Below are positions 3 to 2,862 of a stretch of 64,000 bases of DNA, piece after piece (the first letter of the stretch is position 1; every line of letters starts with the position of its first letter). The translations under genes were made by a program, and so were the position numbers. The stretch comes from Methylobacterium organophilum. GTDB lineage: Bacteria; Pseudomonadota; Alphaproteobacteria; Rhizobiales; Beijerinckiaceae. The stretch lies in assembly GCF_022179465.1 (NCBI RefSeq), contig NZ_BPQV01000010.1, positions 124,001 through 188,000 on the forward strand. Reading direction: 5' to 3'. The notes under the pieces are model-generated. The model searched no databases. It was not told where the DNA came from and was given only the letters and a program-made list of their open reading frames with translations.

Positions 3-857
3 CGCGCCGCGATCGAGGAGGAGGGCATCCGTTCGCGCATCGGCCAGTATCGCGAGGAGCGTGATCGCCTGAAGGGGCACACCAACTCCCACGGCGAACA
101 GGGCATCGAGCTTCTGGCGGTCCATGCCGGCGAGCCGCGCCTGCCGACCACCTTCGTCGACTACGAGACCGATCCGCGCGAGTATCACCTCTCGACGATC
201 CAGACGATCCTCAACACCCATACCCGCGTGACCGATCTCTACTCCAACGAGATCGACCAGCTCCGCGAGCAGATCCGCCTCACGGTCGACGCCGTGAAGG
301 AGCGGGAGGAGTGGGAGCTCCTGAACAATTCCGAGTTCGGCCTCCTGAACGAGGTCTCCGGCCGCCAGCGCATCCCGACCCGCTCGGGCCCGCCGACCCC
401 GGACGATCTCGACGAGCTGCTGACCTTGGTCTGGAAGAAGCCCGCCTTCTTCGTGGCCCATCCCCGCGCCATCGCCGCCTTCGGCCGCGAGGCCACCCGC
501 CGCGGCGTGCCGCCGGTCGTCGTCCACCTGTTCGGCGCGCCCTTCATCACCTGGCGCGGCGTGCCGCTGGTGCCGAGCGATAAGCTGCCGATCGACATCG
601 ATCCGGTCACCGGCGCCCAGACCACCTCGATCCTGCTGCTGCGCGTCGGCGAGGGCGAGCAGGGCGTGGTCGGCCTCCAGAAGACCGGCGTCACCGGCGA
701 GATCGAGCCCGGCCTGTCGGTGCGCTACGCGGGCACCAACGACCACTCCATCGCCTCGCATCTGGTGACCCGCTACTTCTCGGCCGCGGTTCTGGTCGAG
801 GACGCCATCGCCCGCCTCGATAACGTGCTGCTGGGAAACTACCATGACTACGCCTGA
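3..857 (+). CDS. Family 2A encapsulin shell protein (SrpI-like), 5'-truncated by the window
   Basis: The frame is open from the first bases and ends at TGA 855-857, giving 284 visible residues. About 300 is usual for family 2A shells, so only a short N-terminus is missing. The visible C-terminal part has the encapsulin HK97-type character: NEIDQLREQIRLTVD, then TRSGPPTPDDLDELLTLVW, a P/E-loop-like middle, and NDHSIASHLVTRYFSAAVLVEDAIARL near the end. No cyclic-nucleotide-binding domain is visible, which fits 2A rather than 2B. The stop overlaps the start of the downstream cysteine desulfurase by 14 bases, the standard shell-cargo pairing in this family. Predicted role: self-assembling protein shell enclosing the desulfurase. 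Family assignment is from recognised sequence and context, not from a search. Confidence 0.85.
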   Translation, partial: RAAIEEEGIRSRIGQYREERDRLKGHTNSHGEQGIELLAVHAGEPRLPTTFVDYETDPREYHLSTIQTILNTHTRVTDLYSNEIDQLREQIRLTVDAVKEREEWELLNNSEFGLLNEVSGRQRIPTRSGPPTPDDLDELLTLVWKKPAFFVAHPRAIAAFGREATRRGVPPVVVHLFGAPFITWRGVPLVPSDKLPIDIDPVTGAQTTSILLLRVGEGEQGVVGLQKTGVTGEIEPGLSVRYAGTNDHSIASHLVTRYFSAAVLVEDAIARLDNVLLGNYHDYA

Positions 858-2862
858 GGCGCCGGCGATCGGCCTTCCCACAGGCAGCGCTGGCGACCTC
901 GCTCATGCGGATCTCGTCGGGCGTCTCGCCCGCGAGATCTACGGCCAGGGTCAAGCGGCGAGCGCGCCGTTCCAGCCCCACCTGCCGCAGACGCCCCAGG
1001 CCCCGCAGGGCCTGGAGAGCCTCCCCACCGGATCCGGGCAGCCTGCGCTGCCCGGCGCCAATCTCGGCACGCCCTCTGCCCCCTCGGGTGCCCTGCCGGC
1101 GGGCTACCAGCCCGACGCCTCGGCGCAGGCGGCCCGCTCCTTCGGTGCGCCGCCGGTCGGCCTGCCGGGCCTGACCGGGCCGTCCTACGCCAATCCCATC
1201 GGCGCCACCCCGGCCCCGGCGGGCGCGAACCTGCTCGACGTCTCGGCGATCCCGCCGGTGCATCCCTTTCCGGGCCAGCCGCGGCTGCCCGAGTTCTTCG
1301 TGCCGAGCCTGCCGGAGGTCGCGGCCGGGCTCCCGGGCGGTCCCGACCTGCACCGCCAGATCGCGGCCGACCATCCCCGCGCCAACGGCTTCGCCCATGC
1401 GCTGGCGCCTCATCTCGTCCCTCTCGACCCCGCGAGGGCCGGCAAGGACGAGGCGCAGGAGAGCTTCGCGCGCACCGGCCGCCTCTCGCGCGCGCCGGAG
1501 CCCGCGGGCACGGGCGATTACTACTTCCTGAGCCCGGCCTCGGCACCGACCCGGGGCAAGAAAGCCGCGGCCCAGCCGCGGGTCGAACCCTCCCGCCATG
1601 CCGGCCCTGCTCCGCGGGTGACCTCGCACGGGTCCAGCCCGGTCGCCGCGCCCTTCGACGTCGAGCATGTCCGCAAGGACTTCCCGGCGCTCCACCAGAG
1701 CGTGAACGGCCATCGCCTCGTCTGGCTCGACAACGCGGCCACGACTCACAAGCCGCAATCGGTCATCGACGCCACGAGCGAGTTCTACGGCCGCCACAAC
1801 TCGAACATCCACCGGGCCGCGCATACGCTCGCCGCGCGCTCCACGGACCTGTTCGAGGGCGGCCGCGAGAAGACCCGCCGCTTCCTCAACGCCCCGAGCA
1901 AGGACGACATCGTCTTCGTGCGCGGCACGACGGAAGGCATCAACCTCGTCGCCAATTCCTACGGGCGGGCCCATATCGGCCCGGGGGACGAGATCATCGT
2001 CTCGACGATCGAGCACCACGCCAACATCGTGCCCTGGCAGCTCCTGGCCCAGGCGACCGGCGCGACGATCCGGGTGATCCCGGTGGACGACAACGGCGAC
2101 ATCATCTTCGAGCAGTTCGCCGCGCTTCTCTCGGGCCGCACCAAGATCGTCTCGGTGACGCATGTCGCCAACGCGCTCGGCACGGTGAACCCGGTCCGGG
2201 AGATCATCGCCCTGGCCCATGCCTATGGCGTGCCGGTTCTGGTCGATGCCGCGCAGTCCACCCCGCATATCCCGATCGACGTGCAGGCGTTGGATGCCGA
2301 CTTCGTGGTCTTCTCCGGCCACAAGGTGTTCGGGCCGACGGGCATCGGTGCGCTCTACGGCAAGAAGCACCTACTCGAGGCGATGCCGCCCTGGCAGGGC
2401 GGCGGCCACATGATCGAGGACGTGACCTTCTCCAAGACCGTCTACAAGGGCGCTCCGGAGAAGTTCGAGGCGGGCACGCCGGACATCGCCGGGGCGGTCG
2501 GCCTGGGCGCGGCCCTCGACTACCTGGAGAGCGTCGGCCTTCCCGGCATCGCGGCCTACGAGCACGATCTGCTCGAATACGCGCAGGCCGGCCTCGCCGA
2601 GATCAAGGGCCTGCGCCTCATCGGCACCGCCCGGAACAAGGCGAGCGTGATGTCCTTCGTGATCGACGGGCTCGAGAACGAGACCATCGCCCATCACCTC
2701 GACGCCCACGGCATCGCGGTGCGCTCGGGCCATCACTGCGCCCTGCCGGCCCTGCGCCGCTTCGGCGTCGATCAGTCGGTGCGCGCCTCGCTCGCCTTCT
2801 ACAACAACCGGGACGACGTCGACGTCTTCCTCAGGGCGCTGCAGACCCTGCCGCGGCACTGA
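844..2862 (+). CDS. Encapsulated cysteine desulfurase (SufS/CsdA type II) with long disordered cargo domain
   Basis: 672 residues. Residues 271-672 form a group II PLP cysteine desulfurase: LVWLDNAATTHKP near the start, PLP-lysine K494 in SGHKVFGPTG, and catalytic C632 in RSGHHCALP. It removes sulfur from cysteine, leaving alanine and an enzyme persulfide. Residues 1-270 are Pro/Ala/Gly-rich and probably disordered, with three less degenerate islands: DLVGRLAREIYG (23-34), LPEFFVPSLPEV (148-159) and GDYYFLSP (224-231). Such an extension is known in family 2A encapsulin cargo and directs packaging. Ordinary SufS proteins are about 410 residues. The ATG lies inside the encapsulin gene, suggesting translational coupling. 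A loading role for each island is inference. Confidence 0.92.
   Translation: MTTPEAPAIGLPTGSAGDLAHADLVGRLAREIYGQGQAASAPFQPHLPQTPQAPQGLESLPTGSGQPALPGANLGTPSAPSGALPAGYQPDASAQAARSFGAPPVGLPGLTGPSYANPIGATPAPAGANLLDVSAIPPVHPFPGQPRLPEFFVPSLPEVAAGLPGGPDLHRQIAADHPRANGFAHALAPHLVPLDPARAGKDEAQESFARTGRLSRAPEPAGTGDYYFLSPASAPTRGKKAAAQPRVEPSRHAGPAPRVTSHGSSPVAAPFDVEHVRKDFPALHQSVNGHRLVWLDNAATTHKPQSVIDATSEFYGRHNSNIHRAAHTLAARSTDLFEGGREKTRRFLNAPSKDDIVFVRGTTEGINLVANSYGRAHIGPGDEIIVSTIEHHANIVPWQLLAQATGATIRVIPVDDNGDIIFEQFAALLSGRTKIVSVTHVANALGTVNPVREIIALAHAYGVPVLVDAAQSTPHIPIDVQALDADFVVFSGHKVFGPTGIGALYGKKHLLEAMPPWQGGGHMIEDVTFSKTVYKGAPEKFEAGTPDIAGAVGLGAALDYLESVGLPGIAAYEHDLLEYAQAGLAEIKGLRLIGTARNKASVMSFVIDGLENETIAHHLDAHGIAVRSGHHCALPALRRFGVDQSVRASLAFYNNRDDVDVFLRALQTLPRH

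Follow-up and report, generated by a model that had tools for sequence, protein, structure and literature searches.

What would a leaf and soil bacterium gain from enclosing a cysteine desulfurase in a protein shell, and when would it do so? Methylobacterium is a common inhabitant of leaves and soil, and the question is raised by two genes at the left edge of a 64,000-nucleotide stretch of the Methylobacterium organophilum genome (contig NZ_BPQV01000010.1, G000:C10:124001-188000), which is called the window here. A gene for a Family 2B encapsulin shell, cut by the window edge, overlaps a gene for a cysteine desulfurase with a long N-terminal extension, its presumed cargo. The initial annotation, made from the letters of the window, had described an encapsulin shell and a desulfurase cargo with a disordered extension of the targeting type in a bacterium carrying bchL, and this description holds. 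We put at about even the chance that the two genes make a sulfur-starvation compartment that is itself cheap in sulfur and captures the sulfur of cysteine. The compartment is grouped with sulfur-scavenging genes because two unlike kinds of evidence, a promoter box and amino acid composition, point the same way.

The promoter box of the shell gene (G000:C10:123237-123269) lies upstream of the window, in the spacer between a cysE-type gene and the shell gene. The spacer element reads approximately RGAA-N5/6-TTCYRTTGAC, in which TTGAC forms five columns that are invariant in 51 aligned upstream regions, and the box overlaps the -35 element (the -35-like TTGAC) of the shell promoter. As simpler descriptions, the exact pattern GAA-N5-TTYYRTTGAC matches nowhere in the genome, and the palindrome TAGAA-N5-TTCTA matches only at the shell's own upstream region; both were replaced by a sequence-only profile of the box, R1. 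Scanned against 41 genomes of the genus, with the stricter search filters used at that size, R1 matched 79 sites at E <= 0.05, while its column-reversed control, R2, matched none at that threshold and two at E <= 1. By construction, 32 of the 79 matches precede shells. The first genes after the other 47 sites, with classes named by scanning one representative per class, include 26 of sulfur-acquisition or scavenging type: ten MsuE flavin mononucleotide (FMN) reductases, five members of the SsuA family, four SfnB-like proteins, three rhodanese/3-mercaptopyruvate sulfurtransferase-like proteins, two O-acetylhomoserine/O-acetylserine (OAH/OAS) sulfhydrylases, one alkanesulfonate-monooxygenase-like protein, and one MetQ-like protein. 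Another 18 are one small gene, and three fall outside (one ABC ATPase, one unknown, and one site with no gene recognised). The representatives of MsuE, of three of the five SsuA proteins, and of OAH sulfhydrylase score over their NCBIfam cut-offs, covering 15 of the 47 sites.

In M. organophilum itself, the best R1 match (18.4 bits, E 0.0099) precedes an msuE-type FMN reductase gene (226.5 bits, cut-off 212.5), which is divergent from sfnG (600.6 bits, cut-off 383). Two further matches in this genome have E above 0.05 and are not among the 79. One (G000:C11:52095, 13.2 bits) precedes the small uncharacterised gene, and the third match (G000:C8:225680, 12.0 bits) lies before what its open reading frame (ORF) suggests is a sugar-type ABC binding protein. 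The small gene encodes a protein of about 95 residues with the stretch ARVIEIGE(I/V)TAGIAVPEGRGVRFFSS, and the box stands about 300 bases upstream of it (18 sites in the genus, e.g., L212 893-1177). The protein has no match in Pfam or NCBIfam, and it is a candidate member of the sulfur regulon. The shell thus shares its promoter box with sulfur-acquisition genes of the genus, although its own site is a weak one.

The second kind of evidence is composition. The idea that sulfur-starvation proteins can be low in Met and Cys is not new. Leaving out the start residue, and against an expectation drawn from 60 further genes in the genome, the shell has neither Met nor Cys in 462 residues (9.7 expected, Poisson 6e-5), and the cargo has three Met and one Cys in 671 (14.1 expected, Poisson 0.0016). 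The housekeeping SufS has 16 Met and 4 Cys in 441 residues. Two of the 60 background genes are also free of both residues; both come from L182, a locus chosen for its box, and one of them is msuE. Among the other 35 genes of the window, the lowest Met/Cys fraction is 0.0056 and the overall fraction 0.0230. Among relatives, of 71 unique shells (70 from the genus and one from a Beijerinckiaceae metagenome-assembled genome), 70 have no Cys, 64 have one Met, and five have neither residue. Eight other alphaproteobacterial 2B shells linked to desulfurases are equally poor, and five shells from Verrucomicrobia and Bacteroidetes have one Met and one Cys each. The genes behind the box share the depletion, with a median fraction of 0.0055 for 35 genes of the box-linked classes versus 0.0258 for 58 other genes of the same fetched loci (one-sided Mann-Whitney 4e-13, the genomes being related and not independent). 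The OAH/OAS sulfhydrylases behind the box (L253 and L257, about 447 residues) have neither residue beyond the start Met.

The classes of shell and cargo, the gene order, the conserved motifs, the box with its other targets, and the low Met/Cys content can be read from the sequences; from there we infer regulation by sulfur starvation, loading of the cargo, storage and release of sulfur, and a role for a domain of the shell described below. When sulfur is short, a sulfur-starvation regulator would act at the box overlapping the -35 element, and the cell would then build a shell at almost no cost in sulfur. The cargo extension, through a conserved island (residues 18-43) and the motif YYFL, would load the desulfurase into the shell. 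Inside, the enzyme would convert cysteine to alanine, and the sulfur would be held as persulfide or elemental sulfur, later to be released by thiols or handed to acceptors. The serine acetyltransferase encoded upstream by the cysE-type gene would help to convert scavenged sulfur, arriving in pulses, to cysteine. For a starving cell, the benefit of such storage might be a buffer for these pulses or the mobilisation of cysteine from degraded protein. Sequestration of sulfur or persulfide in the compartment is possible in this organism, and in a study of desulfurase encapsulins such compartments reportedly store elemental sulfur. Storage of sulfur is also mentioned in one line of PMC12407261. The Family 2A system of Synechococcus elongatus, consisting of the shell SrpI and the desulfurase CyD, responds to sulfate starvation with upregulation, and its desulfurase is about seven times as active when encapsulated (PMC8049743).

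Several points weigh against a starvation compartment. PMC8049743 also describes knock-outs of the Synechococcus system as having no growth defect under starvation. The shell's own box scores only 15.0 bits (E 0.11), weaker than the 0.05 cut. The SfnB-like, rhodanese, MetQ-like, and SsuD-like (alkanesulfonate-monooxygenase-like) classes and two of the five SsuA proteins are below their NCBIfam cut-offs and were named by best similarity, and 18 of the 47 non-encapsulin targets are a gene of uncharacterised function. The box matches come from related genomes and are not independent, and the reversal in R2 destroys the -35 element too, with which a contribution of the promoter alone remains compatible. 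As for composition, CysE is not depleted (0.0172). Nor is a low Met/Cys content general to desulfurase shells, because actinobacterial 2B-desulfurase shells (0.0202, n=3) and 2A shells (0.0165, n=23) are near background; terpene-linked shells (0.0193, n=3) are near background as well.

The compartment may also be an organelle of sulfur economy, from which selection has purged Met and Cys because it is produced in bulk at just the time when sulfur is lacking, and whose domain of cyclic nucleotide-binding type, having lost its binding cassette, gates a pore on a metabolite that signals sulfur status. This is tentative, with the balance clearly on the other side. Such a shell, with hardly a sulfur atom in it, would clearly exemplify selection for sparing an element at the level of an organelle. 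Alternatively, the scarcity of Met and Cys may be a matter of chemistry and not of economy, since a compartment for reactive sulfur would do well to avoid thiols and thioethers in its walls. In keeping with this, the cargo has a single Cys, presumably the catalytic one, and the shells of the 2B-desulfurase clade of Alphaproteobacteria and Verrucomicrobia/Bacteroidetes have no more than one Cys. But 2A shells with the same cargo keep three to four Cys (23 rows), Met is depleted as well, and so are box-linked genes that belong to no compartment, including the 447-residue OAH/OAS sulfhydrylase with no Met or Cys at all (2 rows). We consider the chemical explanation unlikely.

The neighbourhood of the operon raises another alternative. 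In 94 loci (duplicates included; 77 of the spacers are unique), cysE stands 44-515 bases upstream of the shell gene and is read from the same strand; in Synechococcus, epsC lies just upstream of srpI. Divergent from cysE and outside the window (L006 8296-9607, minus strand) are a TIGR01244-type sulfur transferase, which consists of nothing but a Blh N-terminal domain, and a pair of half-size YeeE/YedE-type proteins for sulfur transport. This group is present upstream of cysE in part of the other Methylobacterium loci, and such Blh operons have links to the handling of sulfide. Together with a cargo that consumes cysteine, the sulfur transferase and the YeeE/YedE-like pair would suit a detoxifying sink that, at times of sulfur abundance, clears surplus cysteine or retains reactive sulfur. 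Such overflow control seems improbable to us, because the box is held in common with scavenging genes, which answer lack and not excess, and because the adjacent serine acetyltransferase would raise the precursor of cysteine.

It is less probable still that the box, as an A-rich tract followed by TTGAC, is a general mark of strong promoters in the genus and says nothing about sulfur. The box does include the -35-like TTGAC, no regulator is named for it, and the function of its 18 small-gene targets is uncharacterised. However, the 26 sulfur-acquisition targets among the 47 belong to several unrelated families, and once the small gene is counted with them only three targets remain outside. If the genus makes its compartment within a sulfur-scavenging regulon, the condition of its use would be directly testable in easily grown, plant-associated bacteria.

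The initial annotation had suggested that the compartment perhaps feeds Fe-S assembly for BchL/N/B. The genome has bchL (TIGR01281, 440.9 bits) at window positions 54955-55743 on the minus strand, about 52 kb from the encapsulin genes. Among 248 genomes of the family, BchL is found in 26 of the 63 with the shell and in 50 of the 185 others, a weak association (Fisher p 0.04); outside the genus it is found in 14 of 50 and 47 of 182, respectively (p 0.86), and the association is gone. Within the genus, the shell occurs without BchL in one genome and BchL without the shell in three. A role in supplying sulfur for the synthesis of Fe-S clusters or other cofactors is very unlikely, in spite of the SufS-type catalytic part and the presence of bchL, because Fe-S assembly has its own sulfur source in a separate suf operon on another contig (SufB, SufC, SufS, and a SUF-associated protein over their cut-offs) and in a NifS-like desulfurase (scoring below its cut-off), the promoter box gives no lead to Fe-S or photosynthesis genes, and the link to bacteriochlorophyll synthesis is rejected with the loss of the association outside the genus.

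The shell gene begins at G000:C10:123466, 537 bases before window position 3, as seen when the contig is read further upstream. Its complete ORF has 463 residues (L006 11466-12857), of which the window holds the C-terminal 284 (residues 180-463; positions 3..857, plus strand); the other 179 lie on the same contig. The N-terminal arm, the cyclic nucleotide-binding-type domain (CBD), the promoter box, and the cysE-type gene are all outside the window, upstream. The part inside matches solved encapsulins and scores 365.7 bits with PF19307 'SrpI-like' (cut-off 22.8), so the search against encapsulin profiles that had been proposed as a check came out in favor of an encapsulin. From the visible letters it was natural to file the shell under Family 2A, as the initial annotation did, because this part alone matches the 2A chain 8t6r best (311 bits; 290 bits for the 2B chain 9bje). 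The full-length protein (PF19307 363.7 bits) corrects this. It contains a PF00027 cNMP_binding domain at residues 104-185 (37.8 bits, cut-off 27.5), it scores 575.5 bits with the Family 2B model NF041163 (cut-off 400, model positions 1-449) and less, 427.3 bits, with the Family 2A model NF041162 (cut-off 380), and the solved 2B shells 9bje, 9bix, and 9bhu align to residues 7-459, almost its entire length. Note that the NF041163 score alone does not discriminate 2B, as 12 of 17 genomes over its cut-off lack the domain columns; 2A shells pass it too, and it was dropped as a sole test. Family 2A shells have no internal CBD, and membership in 2A is ruled out by the CBD in the N-terminal part. Judged by these profile and structure-homology matches, the shell is a Family 2B encapsulin with an HK97-type SrpI-like core and a CBD in the E-loop.

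In an alignment with PKG, the phosphate-binding cassette of this CBD is degraded: GE has become GD, and the position of Arg is taken by Pro163, leaving neither the canonical Glu nor the canonical Arg of the cyclic-nucleotide cassette. Pro163 is found in 70 of 70 and Asp154 in 67 of 70 Methylobacterium-group shells. In other CBD shells (n=20) the cassette columns vary, the alignment being less sure there. The CBD is also the least conserved part of the shell within the group, with 79% identity to the window shell versus 96% for the core. PMC12407261 describes 2B CBDs as binding no cyclic nucleotide and as sitting above two-fold pores. Regulation of the shell by cyclic nucleotides was rejected with the loss of the cassette; cyclic nucleotides are probably not ligands of the CBD, which may instead gate a pore in response to some other ligand.

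The cargo (844..2862, plus strand; 672 residues) is assigned to the SufS-type cysteine desulfurases by profiles and structures. It scores 809.6 bits with NF041166 'encapsulin cargo cysteine desulfurase' (cut-off 800) and 548.5 bits with TIGR01979 SufS (cut-off 475.1), and SufS-type structures match it from about residue 271. Going by SufS, Lys494 in FSGHK (2323..2325) is taken to be the pyridoxal phosphate lysine, and Cys632 in SGHHC (2737..2739), the only Cys of the protein, is presumably the catalytic cysteine. The stop of the shell gene overlaps the cargo start by exactly 14 bases (ATGACTACGCCTGA, 844..857). This overlap and the long extension had been remarked upon; the overlap is as reported, and both features are ordinary for the family, with the cargo ATG at the same overlap position in 117 tallied loci (duplicate genomes and 2A systems included).

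Residues 1-270 of the cargo (844..1653) are presumed to be the loading region. They are 47% Pro, Ala, and Gly versus 26% in the catalytic part, which bears out their earlier description as low-complexity. Over 71 unique Methylobacterium-group cargos, mean identity is 64% in the extension and 90% in the catalytic part. Of three loading islands proposed initially (23-34, 148-159, and 224-231), only two hold. Residues 23-34 are 96% identical, which 1.5% of equal-size windows match, and belong to a conserved island at 18-43 (895..972) whose LVGRLAREIY is the counterpart of the published LARLANEFFS. Residues 224-231 as originally drawn are 73% identical, and 30% of windows do as well, but their core YYFL (residues 226-229; 1519..1530) is 99% identical and corresponds to the published AASPYYFLDG. 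Residues 148-159 (1285..1320; 67%, with 39% of windows doing as well) are conserved no more than the rest of the extension. Two conserved stretches had been missed, 101-113 (1144..1182; 86%) and 171-184 (RQIAADHPRANGFA, 1354..1395; 83%). The two published motifs are those of the Synechococcus elongatus CyD extension, which loads the cargo into the shell; loading is best with the complete 225-residue extension, poorer with its first 100 residues, and absent with a piece containing the second motif alone (155-183) (PMC8049743). By analogy, the extension studied here would load the desulfurase into its shell. In actinobacterial 2B-desulfurase cargos (L137 7364-8824, L139 5283-6791) the extension is shorter, the cargos of L137 and L138 have RYWL in place of YYFL, and a LARLANEFF-type motif was not found. 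In Methylobacterium strain WL119 (L106) the extension is not alignable to the others, and the match begins only at residue 269.

Convergent with the cargo gene is a large ORF (2918-6691, minus strand) with several PAS, histidine kinase, and response-regulator domains. A search of L006 8000-15000 for riboswitches and known RNAs found nothing near the gathering score, with two snoRNA matches at chance level. A scan of genome contigs for relatives yielded 325 encoding stretches. The best 80 of these are mostly from Methylobacterium and Methylorubrum, and also from Xanthobacter, Aquabacter, Aureimonas, Acetobacter, Chelatococcus, Verrucomicrobia, and Bacteroidetes. Within the family, the shell is found in 63 of 248 genomes. 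It is present in 13 of 16 genomes of the genus, all with long frames of 2B size, and likewise in three of another genus (g6); the remaining listed shell frames of the family are shorter. In a tree of the HK97 core (41 author-chosen rows, 238 columns), one branch (100/98) sets off the 2A shells and another (100/100) the terpene-linked 2B shells, and the 2B shells linked to desulfurases fall between the two. With this intermediate position, a single gain or loss of the CBD and a single switch of cargo are enough, and because only three terpene-linked rows are included and the root is not known, the tree fits a gain and a loss equally.

Three known systems resemble this operon. The actinobacterial 2B encapsulins of terpene cyclases (L140-L142; also the two-component Streptomyces lydicus shell of PMC12407261) likewise have a CBD in the E-loop. 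They differ in their cargo, in forming their own branch of the HK97 core, and in a Met/Cys content near background. The 2A SrpI-CyD system of Synechococcus elongatus (L144) is similar in cargo type, in both published extension motifs, and in the acetyltransferase gene upstream, and its shell is homologous in the HK97 core (60% identity over 52% of the query). Unlike the window shell, the SrpI-CyD shell has no CBD, the counted 2A rows keep three to four Cys, and its neighbours cysK and a rhodanese gene were not found beside the window shell. The promoter box and the low sulfur content of the shell were not found in the open-licence literature, which is weak evidence of absence. The closest counterpart is the pairing of a 2B shell with a cysteine desulfurase, already described for 199 operons in PMC8346489. 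There too a CBD-bearing shell stands beside a desulfurase with a long disordered N-terminus. Nothing removes the window operon from that group; what it adds is its low Met/Cys content and a promoter box held in common with other genes.

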